A stretch of 64,000 bases of DNA from Gammaproteobacteria bacterium (GTDB lineage: Bacteria > Pseudomonadota > Gammaproteobacteria > Pseudomonadales > Porticoccaceae): positions 62,001-126,000 of the forward strand of contig JACPPB010000026.1 in assembly GCA_016191205.1 (NCBI GenBank), given 5' to 3'. The position numbers were made by a program, and so were the translations under genes. Below are positions 18,254 through 37,392 of this stretch, piece after piece; within the stretch, counting starts at the first letter, position 1, and the number at the start of each line of letters is the position of its first letter. The notes under the pieces are model-generated. The model saw only the letters and a list, made by a program, of their open reading frames with translations. It searched no databases and was not told the origin of the DNA.

Positions 18254-18262
18254 CAGGCCGCT
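18242..18262. terminator. putative bidirectional hairpin across the convergent cysE and epmA stop codons
   Basis: AGCGGCCTG-TGA-CAGGCCGCT perfect 9-bp stem, 3-nt loop; no U-tract. Confidence 0.45.
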
Positions 18263-19214
18263 AACCTTCCGCGAAAGTCAGCACATCGCGGATATGTCCG
18301 GCCCCCAGCAATTGCATCAACAGGCGATCGACGCCCAGGGCAACCCCGGCGCAGTCCGGCAGACCTGCCGCCAGCGCCGCCAGGAGCCGTTCGTCAGCGG
18401 GCCGAACCGGCTTGCCCAGTGCCGCGCGCAGTTCGCCATCCGCCGCGAACCGGCGGCGTTGCTCATCGGCATCGGTCAGCTCCCAGTAGCCGTTGGCGAG
18501 CTCGACCCGGTTGAGGAACACCTCGAAACGCCGCGCCACGGGCACGCCATCCGGCGTGTCAACCACCCGCGCGAGCGCCGCCTGGCAGGCCGGATAAGCG
18601 GTGACGAACACGACGCCTGTCGGCAACCGTGGCTCCACCTTCAGACTGAACAGCAGGTCCAGGCAAATCGCGCGGGGCTCGTCGCGCCAACGCACCGCCG
18701 GCTGATCCGCCGCGGCCGCCGCTTGTTCACGCAGCTCACTGTCAGCCGCGGCATGGGGATCCAGCCCCAACGCGTCACGAAAGCATGTGCCGTAATCCAG
18801 CCGTGGACAGGGCGCCGCGCCTGCCGCGCCGAGGTTACGCAGCAGGGTTTCCACTTCATCCATCAACTGGCGGTCGTCCCAGCCGGGCCGATACCATTCA
18901 AGCAGGGTGAATTCAGGGTTGTGCAGACGTCCCCGCTCACCGGCCCGAAAGGCCTTGCCGAGGTAATAGACCGGTTGCGGATGGACCGCTAGCAGCCGTT
19001 TCAGAAAATATTCGGGTGAGCTTTGAAGGTACCCGGGTGGCTCGCCGGCCACCACCAGGTTGTCGATATGGACATCGGTGACGCCGGTCTGACCGAGCAC
19101 CGGGACATCGATTTCCAGCACCGCGCGGGCCGCGAAAAACGCGCGGATTCCGGCCAGCAGCCGCGCCCGCCGCACCAGGGCGTCGCGCGGTGCCGAAGGT
19201 CGCCAGTCGGTCAC
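18261..19214 (-). CDS. epmA: elongation factor P--(R)-beta-lysine ligase
   Basis: class II LysRS-like core without anticodon domain: LQSSPEYFLKRLL, GKAFRAGERGRLHNPEFTLLEWYR, GVALGVDRLLM. Confidence 0.92.
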   Translation of the reverse strand: MTDWRPSAPRDALVRRARLLAGIRAFFAARAVLEIDVPVLGQTGVTDVHIDNLVVAGEPPGYLQSSPEYFLKRLLAVHPQPVYYLGKAFRAGERGRLHNPEFTLLEWYRPGWDDRQLMDEVETLLRNLGAAGAAPCPRLDYGTCFRDALGLDPHAAADSELREQAAAAADQPAVRWRDEPRAICLDLLFSLKVEPRLPTGVVFVTAYPACQAALARVVDTPDGVPVARRFEVFLNRVELANGYWELTDADEQRRRFAADGELRAALGKPVRPADERLLAALAAGLPDCAGVALGVDRLLMQLLGAGHIRDVLTFAEG

Positions 19215-19229
19215 CGCGCACCCCGCACG

Positions 19230-19256
19230 AAAAAGGGCGGTTGCAGCCGCCCTTTT
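19230..19256. terminator. rho-independent terminator between efp and epmA
   Basis: AAAAAGGGCGG-TTGCAG-CCGCCCTTTTTT; T-tract on both strands, 3' of efp on the minus strand. Confidence 0.75.
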
Positions 19257-19281
19257 TTCAGATCACCCAAACTTTCCGCCC

Positions 19282-19851
19282 TCACTCCCGGGCTCGGCTC
19301 AGGTACTCGCCGGTGCGCGTGTCGACCCGCACCACGTCTCCGACATTGAGAAACAATGGCACCTTGACGACCGCGCCGGTCACCAGCTTGGCGGGCTTGG
19401 TGCCGCCGGTGGCGGTGTCGCCCCGCATGCCGGGGTCGGTCTCGGCAATTTCGAGTTCGACATGGTTCGGCGGCGTCACCGCCAGGGGCGCCCCGTTGTA
19501 GAGCGTCACCACACAGTTGTCCTGTTCCCGCAGCCAGCGCGCCGCATCGCCGACGATCATTTCATCAGCCTGACACTGCTCGAACGTCTCGGGCGTCATG
19601 AAGTGCCAGTGCTCGCCATCGTTGTAGAGGTATTGCATGGTCACGTCGACGACGTCGGCGCCTTCCAGACTGTCGCCCGACTTGAAGGTGCGCTCCCAGA
19701 CCCGTCCGGTCTTGAGGTTGCGCATGCGCACGCGATTGAACGCCTGCCCTTTGCCGGGCTTCACGAATTCGTTTTCGAGGATGGAGCAGGGATCGCCGTC
19801 CAGCATCACTTTCAGGCCGGAGCGGAATTCGCTGGTAGAATAGACCGCCAT
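19282..19851 (-). CDS. efp: elongation factor P
   Basis: [53 protein letters not shown]; modifiable Lys in PGKGQA loop. Confidence 0.96.
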
Positions 19852-19907
19852 TCAGGGTTCCTTTTGCTTTCCGGATCAATGCGAGCCGGGCCAATTCGAG
19901 GGTCGTC

Positions 19908-20915
19908 ATGATACAGCAGCGCGTCGCGGCGTGGCAGTCGCTCGACTGGCACGCGGAGCTCGCGGCCGCCGTAAGGGACCCGCGCGAACTGGCCGCCCTG
20001 CTCGAGCTGCCCGTAGCCGCCCTCGGCATTGCGGAAGCCGCCCACGCGCAGTTTCCGCTGCGCGTCCCGCGTCCCTACATCGCCCGCATGCGGCGCGGCG
20101 ATCCCCGCGACCCGCTGCTGCTGCAGGTACTGCCGGCGCAGGCCGAGATGATCGCCACACCCGGGTACGGCGAAGATCCGCTGGCAGAGCGCGCCGCCAA
20201 CCCGATCCCGGGGCTGATCCACAAGTATTTTGGCCGCGTGCTGCTGATTTTGAGTCCGGCGTGCGCCATCCACTGCCGTTACTGTTTCCGCCGTCATTTC
20301 GACTACGCCGGCAACACGCCGGGGCGCGCCCGCTGGCGGGAAGCGCTCGATTACATCCGTCGCGACGACTCGATCACGGAGGTCATTTACAGCGGCGGCG
20401 ATCCGCTGGCCGCGGGCGATCCGCTGCTCGCCTGGTTGACCGAACAACTCGCCGCCATCCCGCATCTGACGCGCTTGCGCGTACACACGCGCCTGCCGGT
20501 GGTGATTCCCGCCCGCATCGATGCCGAGTGCCTCGCCTGGCTCGGCGGAACCCGCCTCCAGACCAGCCTGGTACTCCATGTGAACCACGCCAACGAACTG
20601 GATGCGGACGTCGCCGCGGCGGTCGGGTCGTTGCGTGCCGCCGGGATCACCGTGCTCAATCAATCGGTCTTGCTGGCCGGCGTCAACGACTGCGTGGAGC
20701 GCCTGACCCGCCTCAGTGAACAACTGTTTTCAGTGGGAATCCTCCCGTATTATCTTCACCTGCTGGACCGGGTTCAGGGCGCCGCCCACTTTGCCGTCGA
20801 TCAGGCGCAGGCAATTACCCTCCATCGCGCGATGCTGGCGCGGCTGCCGGGGTATCTGGTGCCGCGGCTGGTCGAGGAAGTGCCCGCTCTGCCTTACAAA
20901 AAGCCCCTAAACTGA
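19908..20915 (+). CDS. epmB: EF-P beta-lysylation protein EpmB (lysine 2,3-aminomutase family)
   Basis: ILSPACAIHCRYCFRRHFDYAG radical SAM motif, YSGGDPLAAGD; adjacent to efp/epmA. Confidence 0.92.
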   Translation: MIQQRVAAWQSLDWHAELAAAVRDPRELAALLELPVAALGIAEAAHAQFPLRVPRPYIARMRRGDPRDPLLLQVLPAQAEMIATPGYGEDPLAERAANPIPGLIHKYFGRVLLILSPACAIHCRYCFRRHFDYAGNTPGRARWREALDYIRRDDSITEVIYSGGDPLAAGDPLLAWLTEQLAAIPHLTRLRVHTRLPVVIPARIDAECLAWLGGTRLQTSLVLHVNHANELDADVAAAVGSLRAAGITVLNQSVLLAGVNDCVERLTRLSEQLFSVGILPYYLHLLDRVQGAAHFAVDQAQAITLHRAMLARLPGYLVPRLVEEVPALPYKKPLN

Positions 20916-20972: not shown

Positions 20973-22367
20973 ATGGAACAGTCCGCAGCACAGGATCGTC
21001 AGCTTGCCAATATTCTCCTGCGTCTTTCCCGCGCGGACGATGCCGTGGCAGCGCTGGACGAACAACCCGCTCCCATGGGATTGCCTGGCGGCGTCGAAAA
21101 CCTTGAAAAACTATCCCCAGAAACTCGCGCCCCCGCGCTGTATCGCCACCTCCGCGAAATCCGCGCCACTGGAGTGGGGCCACGCATCCGGCTGGAGCGC
21201 GTGGTCTATCTCGGTCCCCTGATAGCCGAAACCGTCAATGCGCTCATGGTGCAACCCGTGGCGGCCTCGGACCGGCGTCTGGCGATCTCCCTGCCCATTG
21301 CACTGCTGAAATGTAGCTACGACATCAAGCGCCAGGCCGTGGTGCAGAGCATTCGCCAACCCCGAATGGACGCGTCATTGGTGGCCGATGCCGTCCTCAC
21401 AACCTTTGCTGCACTGTTCGACCTCCTGGTGTGCTACTGGATCCAGCACTTGCCGCCCCCGGAACGGTTTTGGGGCGAACTGCACGCGCTCTATCAGCTC
21501 GCCAGTCATGCGGGACTTGGCAGCCGCAGCCGCAGCGGCAGCGGACACCCACGGACAACGGCGACACTGCGCGAAATACGCAACGCTTACCTTAAACCGT
21601 TGCTGTTGGGCAGTCTGAGCCCGACCCGCTTCAACAGCGGCGAAATCAAGCAGCTCGTCAGCTTTGTCGCCAACCATGCCGCGCTGGCCCGACTCGGGAC
21701 GGCCCGAGGATTGTTTGCGGTCGATCCCTGGTGCGACCGACCGCCGACCTACGCGGTACGCGACACCGCCAAGGAGCGCAGCGTCGCGCTCTGTACGCGC
21801 GGCCTGGTCAAGATCCTTGATAACGCCGACACCGACCTGACTCCCCGCCTCAGGGAAGACCTGCGTCGCTACTGGAGTAGCGACCAGGTGCGTTCTGAAC
21901 ACCACCAACGCGCCGATGAGCGCGTGGAAATCGTGTTCGGCCTGGAAGCGGCACACCAGTTGCTGACGGGCTGCGTTGATGACGACGATTTTCTCGGCCA
22001 TCTTGGAGCCCGGGACGCCGGACAGCGGGTGATTGCGCAAACGCCCATCGAGTTGCATTCGGCGACCTGCGTCGATCGCAGCCCTTCCGGCGCCAAACTC
22101 AAGATGGCAGGAGTGCCCGAGGCGCTGCGCCCCGGGGAGCTGATCGCGCTTCTGATGGCCGGTGAGCCCCAGTGTCGGCTCGGCATTGTGCGCTGGACGC
22201 AGCTGACGCCCAAGCTGGACTCGGTTGCTGGAATCCAGTGGCTACCCCACTCAAGCTGCCCCTGTGGTACCGCCGCGGTCGCAGAAACATCTGCTCTGAC
22301 ACCGTACTTCAGGAGCTTTCTGATCCCGGCCGCCCGGCCGCGCCTGCACAGGGCCCATGGGAGCTGA
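20973..22367 (+). CDS. PilZ-domain protein (cyclic-di-GMP binding), C-terminus apparently frameshifted; likely native reading extends to 22501
   Basis: PilZ motifs RADER (RxxxR) and DRSPSG (DxSxxG); after about 22245 the protein-like sequence continues in ORF 22172..22501. Confidence 0.65.
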   Translation: MEQSAAQDRQLANILLRLSRADDAVAALDEQPAPMGLPGGVENLEKLSPETRAPALYRHLREIRATGVGPRIRLERVVYLGPLIAETVNALMVQPVAASDRRLAISLPIALLKCSYDIKRQAVVQSIRQPRMDASLVADAVLTTFAALFDLLVCYWIQHLPPPERFWGELHALYQLASHAGLGSRSRSGSGHPRTTATLREIRNAYLKPLLLGSLSPTRFNSGEIKQLVSFVANHAALARLGTARGLFAVDPWCDRPPTYAVRDTAKERSVALCTRGLVKILDNADTDLTPRLREDLRRYWSSDQVRSEHHQRADERVEIVFGLEAAHQLLTGCVDDDDFLGHLGARDAGQRVIAQTPIELHSATCVDRSPSGAKLKMAGVPEALRPGELIALLMAGEPQCRLGIVRWTQLTPKLDSVAGIQWLPHSSCPCGTAAVAETSALTPYFRSFLIPAARPRLHRAHGS

Positions 22368-22821
22368 TCGCACCCACGCGCATTCTCAAACCGCGCGATC
22401 ACCTCCACCTCATCACCCCTGAGGGCGAGATGAACCTGTCGGTCGCCGCGGTGGTGGACATGACATTTCATGTTTCCCGCTTTCACACCGTCGCCCGATG
22501 ACGTCCGTTCACAGCGATGATCTGATTGCGGCGCCCGGTCGGCGCGGCGGCGGAACCCGCGATGCACCGCCGCCATTGACCCGGCGCAAGCGCATCACGG
22601 CCTGATTTCATTGCCAGATTTGGGTACCACGACAAACAGTTCGCTCCCGTATTTCATGTAACCTGAGTTAACCTTTACAATCCTCGAGGCAGGACACTCA
22701 TCGTGACGCACCCAAAACGACCAAACCGAATCCCCGCACCGAGCGACGGAATGTCCGCGCGGACGGGTGGCGGTCGAGCAACTCCCATAATCAAGCGGCA
22801 CATCGATCCGGTAATAGTGCC

Positions 22822-23784
22822 TTGAAGGTACTCACAACCCTTGCAGACCAAGTCGATAAACTCGCGAGCCTGCTCCAGAGCAGCGCAGAGTCTGTCGATT
22901 TCCAGGTCATCGACAGTGCGGACCTGGATGTATCCGTCCACGACGCCGAATTATTGCTGGCTGGCTACACCAGCGACGCTGATCGTGCGCTGGCGCGCGC
23001 CGTGCTCGGCAGCCTGAAAAAGCTCGCGCTGGATATTCCCGTCATTCTGCTCGTCGCACTCCCCGACCGCGAGCACGTTGTGGAAGGACTCCGGGCCGGC
23101 GCCGCCGATGTCGTCACGCTCGATGACGATCAGCATCTCCTGCAGGTCATCAAGCGTACCCGTCTGGCACGCGCCGAGCGCCAGGAGCGCAACTCATGGC
23201 GACAGCGGTTTGCGGCCTCGGAACGGCGCTGCGAACGCCTGATGGACAGCTCGCGCGACGCCATCGCCCTGATCAGCGACGGCGTGTACACCTATGTCAA
23301 CGTGGCTTACGCGCTCATGCTGGGCCATCAGGACACCGAGGACCTGGTGCCGTCGCCGGTGATCGACAGCTTCCACCCGGATAACCACCGCGAACTGAAG
23401 CCCCTGATGAGGCCTTTGTCGGTCACACAGCCGATCGCGTCGGAACGCAAGACCTTTCGCATGCTCGGCTACAACGGCACGGACTTCCAGATCGAAATGA
23501 ACGTCGCCCAGATCGACTACCAGGGCGAACCGGCGATGCAGTTGATCGCCTACCAGAAAGATCTTGCCAGGCAACCCGGATTTGCGGCCACGGGAACCGC
23601 TGCGGAGAGTACCGAGACCGACCCGGCACTCATCGAATGCCGGCAGGTCAACCTCAAGCGGATGACGGACTACCTTCACAACGCCACACGCGAAACCGTC
23701 GACACCCAGCGGCCCTGGCTGCTGCATGATGTACGCGTCGATGAAGTCGACAGCCTGCAGGGGGATCACCGCCGTCCACGATGA
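22822..23784 (+). CDS. FimX-like protein, N-terminal part: degenerate REC plus PAS (TTG start)
   Basis: REC-like fold (PVILLVALPDREHVVEGLRAGAADVVTL), PAS (ERLMDSSRDAIALISDGVYTYVNVAYALMLG); reading frame breaks at GGGGG 23760-23764. Confidence 0.68.
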   Translation: MKVLTTLADQVDKLASLLQSSAESVDFQVIDSADLDVSVHDAELLLAGYTSDADRALARAVLGSLKKLALDIPVILLVALPDREHVVEGLRAGAADVVTLDDDQHLLQVIKRTRLARAERQERNSWRQRFAASERRCERLMDSSRDAIALISDGVYTYVNVAYALMLGHQDTEDLVPSPVIDSFHPDNHRELKPLMRPLSVTQPIASERKTFRMLGYNGTDFQIEMNVAQIDYQGEPAMQLIAYQKDLARQPGFAATGTAAESTETDPALIECRQVNLKRMTDYLHNATRETVDTQRPWLLHDVRVDEVDSLQGDHRRPR

Positions 23785-24682
23785 CGCCGACGAGCCGACC
23801 AGCTGGATCGACCGCTGCCTCAAAGCCGTGCGCGCACTCGACACTGAAGGCAGCGCTGGTACCAGCACCCGTGTGCGGCTATTCGAGGATCTTTACCCGA
23901 CCAGCGTCGGCAGCCTGAACGAAGAGAACAACGTCAAACAGTTTGTCCGCCAGATGCTGGAACAGAAGATGCTCGGGCTGGTATATCAGCCCATCGTCTC
24001 GCTCCAGCACCAGGATTTCGAAGACTACGAGGTCTTCACCCGGCAGACCATCGCCGAACTCCCGCCCGGCATTCCACAGGACCTGTTCAAGCGCGCGTTT
24101 CGTACCAATGTCGCCGGCGATCTGGATCGCTGGGCCATCCTGGAATCCTTCAAGGCGCTGAAAAACCGGCTCGCCACTCATCCGAAAACCCGGTTGTTCA
24201 TCAAAATCAGCGCCATTTCGCTGCGGGATACCAGCTTCGTTCCCTGGCTGAGAATTTCCTATCAGGCTACCGGCCTCGACCCCAAACACCTGGTGTTCCA
24301 GATCGAGGAAAAAGACGTCAGCCTGGCCATCTCCAGCACGCGGGAGCTGTCGTCGCAGCTCAACCGTCTGGGCCTGCTGATAGGCGTGACTCACTACGGA
24401 CTGTCCAGCTCGCCCGGCCGGATCTTCTCCGACCTGAAATTTGATTTTGCCAAGCCCGACCAGTCCTGCGTACTCAGGGCCAGCACCAGCACCGAGGGCA
24501 TGGAACATCTGAGCGCCTGCATCACCGCCGCCAAAAGCGCCGGGGTCCGCGTCATCGTTCCCTTTGTCGAAGATGCCAGCATCATCCCGCTGTTGTGGAA
24601 GCTCGGGGTAAATCACATCCAGGGCTATTACATCCAGAGTCCGGGCCCCACCATGGAGTATGATTTCAGCAGTCAGGAATGA
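23726..24682 (+). CDS. FimX-like protein, C-terminal part: degenerate EAL domain, frameshifted from 22822..23784
   Basis: LVYQPIVSLQHQDFEDYEVFTRQ (EAL to EVF), LGVNHIQGYYIQSP; continuous with upstream ORF if one G is removed near 23760-23764. Confidence 0.7.
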   Translation: MMYASMKSTACRGITAVHDDADEPTSWIDRCLKAVRALDTEGSAGTSTRVRLFEDLYPTSVGSLNEENNVKQFVRQMLEQKMLGLVYQPIVSLQHQDFEDYEVFTRQTIAELPPGIPQDLFKRAFRTNVAGDLDRWAILESFKALKNRLATHPKTRLFIKISAISLRDTSFVPWLRISYQATGLDPKHLVFQIEEKDVSLAISSTRELSSQLNRLGLLIGVTHYGLSSSPGRIFSDLKFDFAKPDQSCVLRASTSTEGMEHLSACITAAKSAGVRVIVPFVEDASIIPLLWKLGVNHIQGYYIQSPGPTMEYDFSSQE

Positions 24683-25896
24683 GGTCCGCGCGCGTCCTGA
24701 TCGCTGATCCCCATGAGGTACAGAATACTGTCAAGTCCCAACTGGGAGATCGACTGCTTGGCGCTGGCCCGCACGATCGGCTTGGCGCGAAAGGCAATGC
24801 CCAGCCCCGCAACCCCCAGCATCAATAAATCATTGGCGCCATCGCCGACCGCGATCGTCTGCTCCAGGCTGATCCCCTCGCGCTCCGCCAGCTGCCGCAG
24901 CAATTCGGCCTTGCGCGCCGCATCGACGATTTCGCCGCGTACCTCACCGGTCACCACACCGTCGCGCACTTCCAGTTCGTTGGCGAACAGGTAATCGATT
25001 CCGAGACGCGCGCGGATGCGTTCGCCGATGCAACTGAAGCCGCCGGACAGAATGGCGGTCTTGTAGCCCAGCTTTTTCAGGGTGGCAATGAGATGCTCGG
25101 CCCCCTCGGTGAGGGTCAGGCCGGCATAGACTTCGTCCAGCACGGATTCCGGCAAGCCTTTCAACAGTGCGAGCCGCTCGCGAAAACTCGCGCGAAAATC
25201 GAGCTCCCCGCGCATGGCGCGTTCGGTGATCGCCGCCACCTGAAGTCCGGCGCCGGCGCGCAGTGCGAGTTCGTCGATCACCTCGTTTTCGATCAGGGTC
25301 GAATCCATGTCGAACGCCACCAGGCGGCGGTGGCGCCGGAAAATGCTGTCCTCCTGATAGGCAATATCGATATCGAGCTCGGTGGACAGCTCCAGCAGCG
25401 ACGAACGCAACTGCGCCAGGTCCGGAGTGTCGCCGCGCACCGAAAACTCGACGCAGGCCTTGCCGTCACGCGCGGTGGACGCCAGCGGAACCCGTCCGGA
25501 AAGTCGCACGATCTTGTCGATATTGAGTCCGTGCGCCGAGATCACCGCCGTCACCCGCGCGATATGCTCGGCGAGGATGGCGCGCGCCAGCAGCGTGACG
25601 ATATGGCGCGGCTTGCCCTGTTGGCCGACCCAGTGGCGATAGGCGGCGTCCGAGACCGACTCAAAGCGGACTTCGAGCCCCAGCGCGCGCAAGGTGGCGC
25701 GCAACTCCTCCATGGCCGCACCGACCTCGCCCCGCCGCGGCACCCAGGCCAGCAGACCGAGATTCAGGGTGTCGTGAATCACCGCCTGCCCGATGTCCAG
25801 CACCGTGGCGCCGTGCTGGGCCAGCACCAACGACACGGCGCTGGTGACTCCAGGACGATCGGGGCCGGACACATTGACCAGCAGGATCTCCGTCAT
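24673..25896 (-). CDS. serB: phosphoserine phosphatase with ACT domain(s)
   Basis: LVAFDMDSTLIENEVIDELA (DxDxT), AILSGGFSC, AVGDGANDLLML; N-terminal ACT. Confidence 0.94.
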   Translation of the reverse strand: MTEILLVNVSGPDRPGVTSAVSLVLAQHGATVLDIGQAVIHDTLNLGLLAWVPRRGEVGAAMEELRATLRALGLEVRFESVSDAAYRHWVGQQGKPRHIVTLLARAILAEHIARVTAVISAHGLNIDKIVRLSGRVPLASTARDGKACVEFSVRGDTPDLAQLRSSLLELSTELDIDIAYQEDSIFRRHRRLVAFDMDSTLIENEVIDELALRAGAGLQVAAITERAMRGELDFRASFRERLALLKGLPESVLDEVYAGLTLTEGAEHLIATLKKLGYKTAILSGGFSCIGERIRARLGIDYLFANELEVRDGVVTGEVRGEIVDAARKAELLRQLAEREGISLEQTIAVGDGANDLLMLGVAGLGIAFRAKPIVRASAKQSISQLGLDSILYLMGISDQDARGPHS

Positions 25897-25937
25897 CGAC
25901 GCCCAGGACTCCCGGAGTGCTGGACTGCCCTGGTCAT

Positions 25938-26593
25938 TCAGCGCGGCTGCATGCGAATGGCACCATCGATGCGGATGGTCTCGCCATTGATGTAGCCGTT
26001 TTCGACGATATGCACCGCCAGCCGGCCGTATTCGCTCGGCTGACCCAGCCGCGCCGGTCCCGCGCCATCGGCAGGGTCATGCCCACGACGCCGCCCTTGC
26101 TGGCGGAATAGGCGCACTGGCCCACCTGCCCCTCATAGGCAGCGACTGACGCGGTGTGGATGATCACGCCGCGCTCGCCGTTTTCCAGTTCGTTCTTCGC
26201 CATCGCGGCCGCCGCGCAGCGCGCCACATTGAAGCTGCCGGTGAGATTGATGCCGATGATTTTGGTGAAATCCTCCAGCGGCATGGGCGCACTGTCGCGG
26301 TCGAGAATTTTTTTGGCCGGACCGATCCCGGCGCAGTTGATCAGCACATGGATCGCACCGAATTTGGTGACCACCTGCGCGATGGCCGCCTCGACCGCCG
26401 TCGCGGAAGCCACATCGACGGAATGGAACACCGCCCGATCCGCGCCCAGTTGCGCCACCACCTCGGCACCGGCCGCGGCATTGAGATCGAAGATCGCGAT
26501 CCGCGCGCCCCGGCGCGCCAGCTCGTCCACCGTCGCGCGGCCCAAACCGGACGCACCGCCGGTCACCACGGCTACCTTGTTTTGCAAATCCAC
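25938..26593 (-). pseudogene. short-chain dehydrogenase/reductase (HSD17B10/3-hydroxyacyl-CoA dehydrogenase-like) with out-of-frame internal deletion
   Basis: head MDLQNKVAVVTGGASGLGRATVDEL...[18 protein letters not shown]; native-looking tail [39 protein letters not shown] only in another frame from 26057 to 25938. Confidence 0.8.
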
Positions 26594-26801
26594 GGCTGTC
26601 TCCTCGTTGCTTGAGTGACGTTACCTGCGTAACGTTTGGTTGGATGAATCGTCCGGGCCAGTAAGGCACTGCCGCCACCGATCGGCAAAAGGCTCGCCGG
26701 TTGCGCGCTCACCGCGGGCCGCCATTGTCGGGAAAACCCCGCGACCCGGCAACCGGGCTACACTCTCGCGCCACTCACACGCTGATCGGATTGCCGCATC
26801 C

Positions 26802-32870: not shown

Positions 32871-33161
32871 ATGAAAGCACTGCCGGACGATGTCGTCGCC
32901 TACCAGCGTACACCCGAATTCACGGAGCAATCCGTTCCCGCCGGATTGCTCAACAGCCACAGCACGAAAGCCGGCGTGTGGGGAAAGATCGTCGTCGTCG
33001 CGGGCACGCTGACCTACCGCATTCTGGAGCCGGTCGTTGAAGAGGTACTGCTCACACCCGAATTACCGGGCGTGGTGGAACCGACGGTAAAACACGAAGT
33101 AGCACCGCATGACGGCGTGACATTTTATGTCGAGTTCCATCGGGCCGCGCCGCCACGCTGA
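32871..33161 (+). CDS. DUF1971 (YeaR/TehB-like) domain protein
   Basis: 96 aa: LPDDVVAYQRTPEFTEQSVPAGLLNSHSTKAGVWGKIVVVAGTLTYRI. Confidence 0.75.
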   Translation: MKALPDDVVAYQRTPEFTEQSVPAGLLNSHSTKAGVWGKIVVVAGTLTYRILEPVVEEVLLTPELPGVVEPTVKHEVAPHDGVTFYVEFHRAAPPR

Positions 33162-34701: not shown

Positions 34702-37392
34702 TTACACCGTCAATGGATCGGCCTTGTCGGGCGCGATGCCCAGTTTGGCCATTGCCGCGTTCACCACGCCGGCGTCGATGGCGCCGCTGCGCTGCAAACC
34801 GTGCAGGGCCGCGAGCGCAATGTGGCTGCGGCTCACTTCGAAGAAATCGCGCAACCGTTCGCGGGTATCGCTGCGCCCGAAACCGTCGGTGCCCAGCACC
34901 TGGTAGTCGCCGGGAACAAATCCGCGCAGCTGTTCGCCGAGCGCCTTGATGTAATCGGTCGCCAGCACCACCGGGCCTTTGTGTCCTTTCAGTTGTTGCG
35001 TCAGATAAGGCACGTGCGGCTTCTTGTCGCTGTGGAGACGATTCCAGCGCAGCGCGGCCTGACCGTCGCGGGCCAGCTCGCCGACGCTGGTGACGCTCCA
35101 CACGTCCGCGCCGACGTCGAACTGCTCGCGCAAAATTCGCGCGGCGGCGCGCGCTTCGTTGAGCATCGCGCCCGCGCCCAGCAACTGCACCCGATGCTTG
35201 GCGCGCGGCCCCGCTTCCAGCAGATAAATCCCGCGCACGATACCTTCGGCCGCGCCTTCCGGCATCGCCGGGTGCGGGTAGTTCTCGTTCAGGGTGGTGA
35301 TGTAGTAGAAGCAGTTTTCGCGGTCGACAAACATCCGCTTGAGGCCGTCCTGAACAATCACCGTCAGCTCGTAACCATAGGCCGGATCGTAGGCGCGACA
35401 GTTGGGAATCACCCCGGCGAGCAACTGGCTGTGGCCGTCCTGATGCTGCAAGCCCTCGCCGTTGAGCGTGGTGCGGCCCGAGGTGGCGCCGATCAGAAAA
35501 CCGCGCGCCTGGGCATCGCCGGCGGCCCAGGCCAGATCGCCGATGCGCTGAAACCCGAACATCGAATAGAAAATGTAAAACGGGATCATCGGCAGATCGT
35601 AGCTGCTGTACGCCGTCGCCAGCGCGATCCAGGCCGCCAGCGAACCGGCTTCGGTTATGCCCTCCTCCAGGATCTGACCTTTTTTGTCCTCTTTGTAGTA
35701 GAGAATCTGGCCGGCGTCGTGGGGCACATAGCGCTGCCCGGCCGAAGAATAGATGCCGAGCTGACGGAACATGCCCTCCATGCCGAAGGTGCGTGCCTCG
35801 TCGGGCACGATGGGCACGATGCGGGCGCCGATGGCCTTGTCCCGCACCAGTTGCTGAAGCATGCGCACGAACGCCATGGTGGTGGAGATCTCCCGCTCAC
35901 CGGTGCTTTCCAGCAGCCGGTTGAAAGTCTCCAGCGCGGGAATTTCCAGGGGCTGGAACTCACCGTGACGGGCCGGCAGGTAGCCGCCCAGTTCCGCGCG
36001 GCGCCGGCGCATGTACGCCAGTTCGGGACTGTCTTCCGGTGGCCGGTAGTAGGGCGTGTCTTCGATGTGCTCGTCCGGAATCGGCAGGCCGAAGCGGTCG
36101 CGGAATTTCTTCAGGTCGTCGAGCTGAATTTTCTTGACCGAGTGTGTGTTATTGGACGCCTCGCCGGAGCTGCCCAGACCATAGCCTTTGACGGTCATGG
36201 CCAGAATGACGGTGGGCTTGCCGCGCGTCTCGACCGCCTCGGCGTAGGCGGCGTACACCTTGTAGGGGTCGTGGCCGCCGCGATTGAGATACATGATGTC
36301 GTCGTCGCTGAGGTCCGCGACCAGCGCGGCCAGCTCCGGGTATTTGCCGAAAAAATGCTCGCGCGTATAAGCGCCGCCATTGAACTTGTAGTTCTGCAAT
36401 TCACCGTCGCAGACTTCATCCATGCGTTTTTGCAGCAATCCGGAGCTGTCCCGCTCCAGCAGCGGATCCCAGAGCCGGCCCCACACCACTTTGAGCACAT
36501 GCCAGCCGGCGCCGCGGAACACGCCTTCCAGTTCCTGAATGATCTTGCCGTTGCCGCGCACCAGGCCGTCGAGGCGCTGAAGATTGCAGTTGACCACGAA
36601 CGTCAGGTTTTCGAGCTGCTCGCGCCCGGCGAGGGAAATCGCGCCCAGGGTTTCCGGCTCGTCGCATTCGCCATCGCCGAGAAAAGCCCACACGCGGCGA
36701 TCGCCGCGCGGCGCCAGTTCCCGCGCCGACAGGTAGCGCATGATGTGGGCCTGGTAGATGGCCTGAATGGGGCCGAGACCCATGGACACCGTGGGGAACT
36801 GCCAGTACTCCGGCATCAGCCAGGGGTGCGGGTAGGACGACAGGCCCTTGCCATCGACCTCGCGGCGGAAATGATCGAGCTGTTCTTCACTTATGCGACC
36901 TTCGAGAAACGAGCGCGCATAGATGCCGGGGGAACTGTGGCCCTGGTAATAGATGAGATCTTCGAGTTGCGCGGCGCTGCGCGCGCGAAAAAAATAATTG
37001 AAGCCGACGTCATAGAGCGTGGCCGCCGACGAGAAGGTGGCGATATGGCCACCCAGACCTTCGTATTTCCTGTTGGCGCGCATCACCATCGCCAGTGCAT
37101 TCCAGCGGATCAGGGAGCGGATGCGGCGCTCCATGAACAGATCGCCGGGCATGCGCTTTTCGCGGCTGACCGGGATCGTGTTGCGAAACGGCGTGGTGAC
37201 GCCACCCGAAAGGGGAATGCCGTTGCGCGCGGCGCGATCGATCAGCTGGCGCAACAGGAAGGCCGCCCGCTCCGGCCCCTGAAAACGCAGCACCGCGTCG
37301 AGGGAGTCGAGCCAGTCGCCGGTTTCCGCGGGATCGGCATCGTCCGACACCATCGGCACTGCCAGGACATCGGGTTGTTGCGGTTCATTCAT
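34702..37392 (-). CDS. aceE: pyruvate dehydrogenase E1 component (homodimeric)
   Basis: GGHIATFSSAATLYDVGFNYFFR, FLGDGECDEPETLGAI, FQRIGDLAWAAGD. Confidence 0.95.
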   Translation of the reverse strand: MNEPQQPDVLAVPMVSDDADPAETGDWLDSLDAVLRFQGPERAAFLLRQLIDRAARNGIPLSGGVTTPFRNTIPVSREKRMPGDLFMERRIRSLIRWNALAMVMRANRKYEGLGGHIATFSSAATLYDVGFNYFFRARSAAQLEDLIYYQGHSSPGIYARSFLEGRISEEQLDHFRREVDGKGLSSYPHPWLMPEYWQFPTVSMGLGPIQAIYQAHIMRYLSARELAPRGDRRVWAFLGDGECDEPETLGAISLAGREQLENLTFVVNCNLQRLDGLVRGNGKIIQELEGVFRGAGWHVLKVVWGRLWDPLLERDSSGLLQKRMDEVCDGELQNYKFNGGAYTREHFFGKYPELAALVADLSDDDIMYLNRGGHDPYKVYAAYAEAVETRGKPTVILAMTVKGYGLGSSGEASNNTHSVKKIQLDDLKKFRDRFGLPIPDEHIEDTPYYRPPEDSPELAYMRRRRAELGGYLPARHGEFQPLEIPALETFNRLLESTGEREISTTMAFVRMLQQLVRDKAIGARIVPIVPDEARTFGMEGMFRQLGIYSSAGQRYVPHDAGQILYYKEDKKGQILEEGITEAGSLAAWIALATAYSSYDLPMIPFYIFYSMFGFQRIGDLAWAAGDAQARGFLIGATSGRTTLNGEGLQHQDGHSQLLAGVIPNCRAYDPAYGYELTVIVQDGLKRMFVDRENCFYYITTLNENYPHPAMPEGAAEGIVRGIYLLEAGPRAKHRVQLLGAGAMLNEARAAARILREQFDVGADVWSVTSVGELARDGQAALRWNRLHSDKKPHVPYLTQQLKGHKGPVVLATDYIKALGEQLRGFVPGDYQVLGTDGFGRSDTRERLRDFFEVSRSHIALAALHGLQRSGAIDAGVVNAAMAKLGIAPDKADPLTV

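Follow-up and report, generated by a model that had tools for sequence, protein, structure and literature searches.

Organization of the fimX locus

The window analyzed in this work is a stretch of 64,000 nt (positions 62,001-126,000 of contig JACPPB010000026.1, G000:C42) taken from a 143-kb contig of a Porticoccaceae metagenome-assembled genome (G000; 2.5 Mb in 76 contigs, with about 9% of the genome missing). Comparison of Porticoccaceae loci reveals a family-wide gene order, epmA-efp-epmB-PilZ-like-fimX-serB. The gene set proposed in a preliminary description of this DNA, with a PilZ-motif gene lying 5' of a REC-PAS-EAL coding region at 22822-24682 and a convergent serB downstream, is borne out by the present analysis (Table 1), and the adjacency of fimX and serB is presumably shared with Pseudomonas aeruginosa, as that description states. 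The genes at the other end of the locus, epmA, efp and epmB (EF-P and its modification genes; window positions 18261-20915), are found beside fimX throughout the family and make unusual surroundings for a pilus regulator.

Both fimX and its upstream neighbor are broken in frame in the window. The PilZ-like gene is split between one frame (20973-22367) and the next (22172-22501), with the family alignment placing the switch near 22330-22350, and it is intact, in a single frame, in the related genomes G023 and G012. In the case of fimX, the REC-PAS half occupies an open reading frame at 22822-23784 (frame 1) and the EAL half another one at 23726-24682 (frame 2). The REC-PAS-EAL gene does not, therefore, consist of one open frame, unlike what the preliminary description conveys.

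Table 1. Features of the fimX locus and its surroundings, in window coordinates.
Feature	Position	Strand	Basis and remarks
PilZ-like gene, frame-broken	20973..22501	+	ORFs, family alignment, intact relatives, Foldseek of orthologue model
fimX orthologue, frame-broken	22822..24682	+	ORFs, Pfam, PDB matches, DNA alignment, family locus
REC-like region	about 22822-23190	+	Pfam Response_reg E only 0.14
PAS domain	23230..23526	+	Pfam PAS E 1.9e-8
GGDEF 5' remnant (first helix and first strand)	23620..23759	+	DNA alignment against intact G023; secondary structure of orthologue model
Junction, run of five G	23760..23764	+	About 233 nt of GGDEF core absent; frame shifts
GGDEF 3' remnant, ITAVHDD... 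to RVRLFEDL	23765..23899	+	Alignments; Pfam GGDEF in relatives
Degenerate EAL domain, FimX type	23945..24643	+	Pfam EAL E 2.1e-39; PDB 4afy E 8.9e-43
serB	24673..25896	-	Intact, convergent to fimX; ORF; 81% identical in G023
SDR gene with clean out-of-frame gap (about 115 nt) at about 26053-26058	25934..26678	-	Relative to G023 and G012

An EAL domain of the FimX type

The catalytic signatures of the EAL domain read YEVFTR, VTHYGL and VPFVED in the window, while LGVNHIQGYY is kept. The changes to EVF, THYG and FVED that had been pointed out previously are thus present, and on the strength of these motifs the domain is predicted to be non-catalytic. The same degenerate signatures are seen in the family orthologues (YE[AV][FL]xx, [LV][TS]H[YF]GL and [VI]PF[VI]Ex) and in P. 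aeruginosa FimX, indicating that a "dead EAL" is the usual state of FimX. Residues contacting the ligand (as listed in PMC3527489) have been kept in the window while the catalytic signatures have been lost. The best match of this domain in the PDB is P. aeruginosa FimX (4afy, E 8.9e-43), with the best non-FimX EAL at 3.7e-11, and the PDB matches of both the window EAL and the intact G023 orthologue favor the FimX identity suggested in the preliminary description. Judging from sequence, the gene at 22822-24682 is an ordinary FimX orthologue.

The GGDEF domain in relatives of the window

The Pfam scan of the window fimX recovers PAS and EAL domains and no GGDEF, and the short linker between the two had been taken as the mark of a module that does without GGDEF. 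This claim does not survive comparison with intact orthologues of the same genus, which hold the full domain. In both G023 and G012 (73% and about 47% identical to the window in the EAL domain) fimX is a single open frame of 722 codons with a complete REC-PAS-GGDEF-EAL order, and Pfam GGDEF is matched in G023 and G012 (9e-10 and 5e-9, both above the cut-off) and in G001 (3e-13), even if the motif itself is degenerate in the orthologues (RVRDNAF, RFKEDTF and similar). The G023 protein aligns with the GGDEF-EAL structure of FimX (4j40, E 3.8e-57), residues 277-430 of its AlphaFold model alternate helix and strand as expected for GGDEF (pLDDT about 80), and the fold matches of the whole chain include PAS-GGDEF-EAL and GGDEF-EAL structures.

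DNA alignment against G023 identifies one contiguous block missing inside the window GGDEF, with a net loss of 233 nt that is no multiple of three and hence out of frame. The linker is indeed short in the window, but as the product of this clean, frame-shifting loss, and the RVRLFEDL segment interpreted earlier as a GGDEF terminus does align with VRLFEDL at the end of the domain in the intact same-genus orthologue. The missing segment was not found elsewhere in the window's genome. It is carried by another genome of the genus, G031, split over two contigs; the assembly break between them (C35 and C232, loci L078 and L080) falls within the GGDEF segment absent from the window. Among the matches listed, FimX frames in the family span 695-789 aa, barring the window's own and those cut by a contig end (501 aa in G008 and 338 aa in G031), and neither the 51 family matches nor the 51 class matches included a cleanly ended short form. 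A working FimX that evolved away from GGDEF, and that is somehow read through despite the change of frame, would be in keeping with an EAL frame that stays open and conserved past the junction. Nonetheless, with its halves in different frames, the whole segment present in three same-genus relatives and no clean-ended short form in either set of matches, such a protein seems highly improbable, and the idea is already largely refuted.

Assembly error versus recent mutation

The fimX gap is not the only one of its kind. A deletion census of 315 G012 genes (306 kb) against about 0.94 Mb of the window's genome revealed three clean out-of-frame internal deletions in the latter: those in fimX (233 nt), in a SDR gene (115 nt) and in yidC (94 nt). 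The SDR gap, which was confirmed against G023, sits 2.3 kb away from that of fimX, whereas the yidC gap lies on a different contig (about 94 nt, out of frame, at about 35700-35760 of G000:C8, locus L082). The query clearly represents YidC, a family with a single member in the window's genome, whose open frame reaches only 226 aa. As E. coli cannot live without YidC, the gap in this single-copy gene is very probably an artefact and not a real deletion, although an intact second copy could lie in the missing 9% or so of the genome and weaken the argument. The reverse census, on G012, returned no clean deletion of that kind, and its two small matches resemble antisense frames. Other apparent frame breaks, several of which came up in the initial censuses, were set aside for their resemblance to antisense open frames. 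A shift of about 2 nt relative to G012 was also observed in a D-alanyl-D-alanine carboxypeptidase-like gene (G000:C27, about 33110-33145, locus L179).

The sequence flanking the gap bears on the same question. Identity to G012 in the REC-PAS region is 38.9% for the window and 34.9% for the intact G023 copy, and the corresponding figures for the EAL domain are 47.7% and 48.3%. This closeness to the outgroup, similar to that of an intact copy, together with a pN/pS of 0.31 for the window EAL against G023, indicates that fimX was under selection until very recently. A deletion that is both real and recent would have left a strain whose fimX is broken and whose PilZ-like neighbor is frameshifted, and in which c-di-GMP control of the pilus is impaired or lost. 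Such a scenario would explain why both linked genes are broken and the adjoining serB is intact, and P. aeruginosa survives the deletion of fimX (PMC12533971). Yet the same type of gap affects single-copy yidC, relaxed selection is not seen in either the pN/pS or the identity comparisons, and the PilB, PilT, PilM and PilZ genes tested are intact, so that a real deletion, the main rival explanation, appears the less likely one.

Given the comparable clean gaps in the SDR and yidC genes, the fimX gap is most probably a defect of the assembly, and the window gene would be an ordinary fimX whose GGDEF hole is an assembly error and not an evolved loss. It counts against this reading that neither fimX nor the SDR gene is probably essential. 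Folding of the missing segment is unremarkable (z -0.85) and does not point to a hairpin as the cause of the gap, microhomology at the junction amounts to at most about 3 nt, no known mechanism links the gap to the assembler, and a literature search on assembly frameshifts returned nothing. The analysis removes a false example of a GGDEF-free FimX and serves as a warning that assembly GCA_016191205.1 holds clean out-of-frame gaps.

A conserved PilZ-like neighbor

With the FimX assignment itself being ordinary, the remaining interest of the locus is in its conserved PilZ-like neighbor. In the window copy the PilZ signature is reduced to one half, DRSPSG at about 22074-22091, and there is no Pfam PilZ match. 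Across the PilZ-like family the [DN]xSxxG element is conserved and a correctly placed RxxxR is absent in nearly all members, the window copy included. No Pfam match was significant, PF07238 being reached only below the cut-off, in 2 of the 11 family proteins scanned, and a PDB profile search with the family gave no match. In the AlphaFold model computed for the G023 protein (mean pLDDT 77), the N-terminal half is helical and the C-terminal part is rich in beta strands. Foldseek matches of this model include MrkH, VCA0042 and YcgR (probability 0.85-0.99, E 3e-3 to 4e-2), suggesting that the protein likely adopts a PilZ fold. Many genomes of the class encode several members of the family (e.g. 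L181 and L183-L186), often matched over the helical N-terminal half alone, and the PilZ-like family is covered by no Pfam entry.

The majority of family loci, though not every one, have the gene placed between epmB and fimX. In a class-wide sample of 51 genomes with a FimX match, at least 27 carry it immediately 5' of fimX and in the same orientation, a lower bound obtained among the matches listed. The linkage of a PilZ-like gene to fimX put forward in the preliminary description is supported, even though the product of the gene differs from the small PilZ protein with which FimX acts in Xanthomonas. In the open-access literature searched we found no description of this linkage, nor of a gene upstream of P. 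aeruginosa fimX; PA4958 is mentioned once, in an expression list only. We tentatively suggest that the PilZ-like protein may be dedicated to FimX as a partner not described so far, a large adaptor of PilZ fold that lacks the c-di-GMP-binding arginines and is widespread beside gammaproteobacterial fimX. A neighbor so deeply conserved, and undescribed in the literature searched, could bear on the action of FimX in lineages like P. aeruginosa.

Proposed function and comparison with known systems

As described in the literature (PMC5595344, PMC8389850, PMC12533971), the EAL domain of FimX binds c-di-GMP, and FimX promotes pilus extension that depends on PilB; direct binding between FimX and PilZ has gone undetected in P. 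aeruginosa (PMC12533971). The check for pilus genes elsewhere in the genome called for by the preliminary description was positive for the PilB and PilM families, and PilT-family genes are encoded as well; a small PilZ orthologue is found at G000:C60 (best PDB match 3cnr, E 1.2e-30). By analogy with this literature, the actual protein would measure about 700 aa and be a c-di-GMP receptor of REC-PAS-GGDEF-EAL architecture in which the catalytic domains are degenerate. Like the FimX proteins of P. aeruginosa and Xanthomonas, it would bind c-di-GMP through the EAL domain and might promote the extension of type IV pili driven by PilB; the small PilZ is encoded elsewhere in the genome.

Among known systems, P. 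aeruginosa FimX (PA4959) has the same domain order as the intact orthologues. Its Gln461, Glu475, Arg479 and Lys616 (numbering of PMC3527489) have counterparts in the window, and the three signatures altered in the window EAL are degenerate there too (EVL, SQFG and PFVES). In contrast with PA4959, the window copy is without about 78 GGDEF codons and is shifted in frame, and the EAL domain of the intact orthologue is about 35% identical to that of P. aeruginosa. The fold modeled for the PilZ-like orthologue resembles that of the YcgR, VCA0042 and MrkH type of PilZ proteins, from which the protein departs in its long helical N-terminal half and in having no correctly placed RxxxR. Finally, the window's genome shares with the FimX-PilZ-PilB system of Xanthomonas citri (PMC8389850) a FimX, a small PilZ of the XAC1133/PA2960 type and PilB-family ATPases. 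Here, as opposed to X. citri, the small PilZ resides on contig C60, away from fimX, and the PilZ-like protein linked to fimX, of about 500 aa, belongs to a different family.
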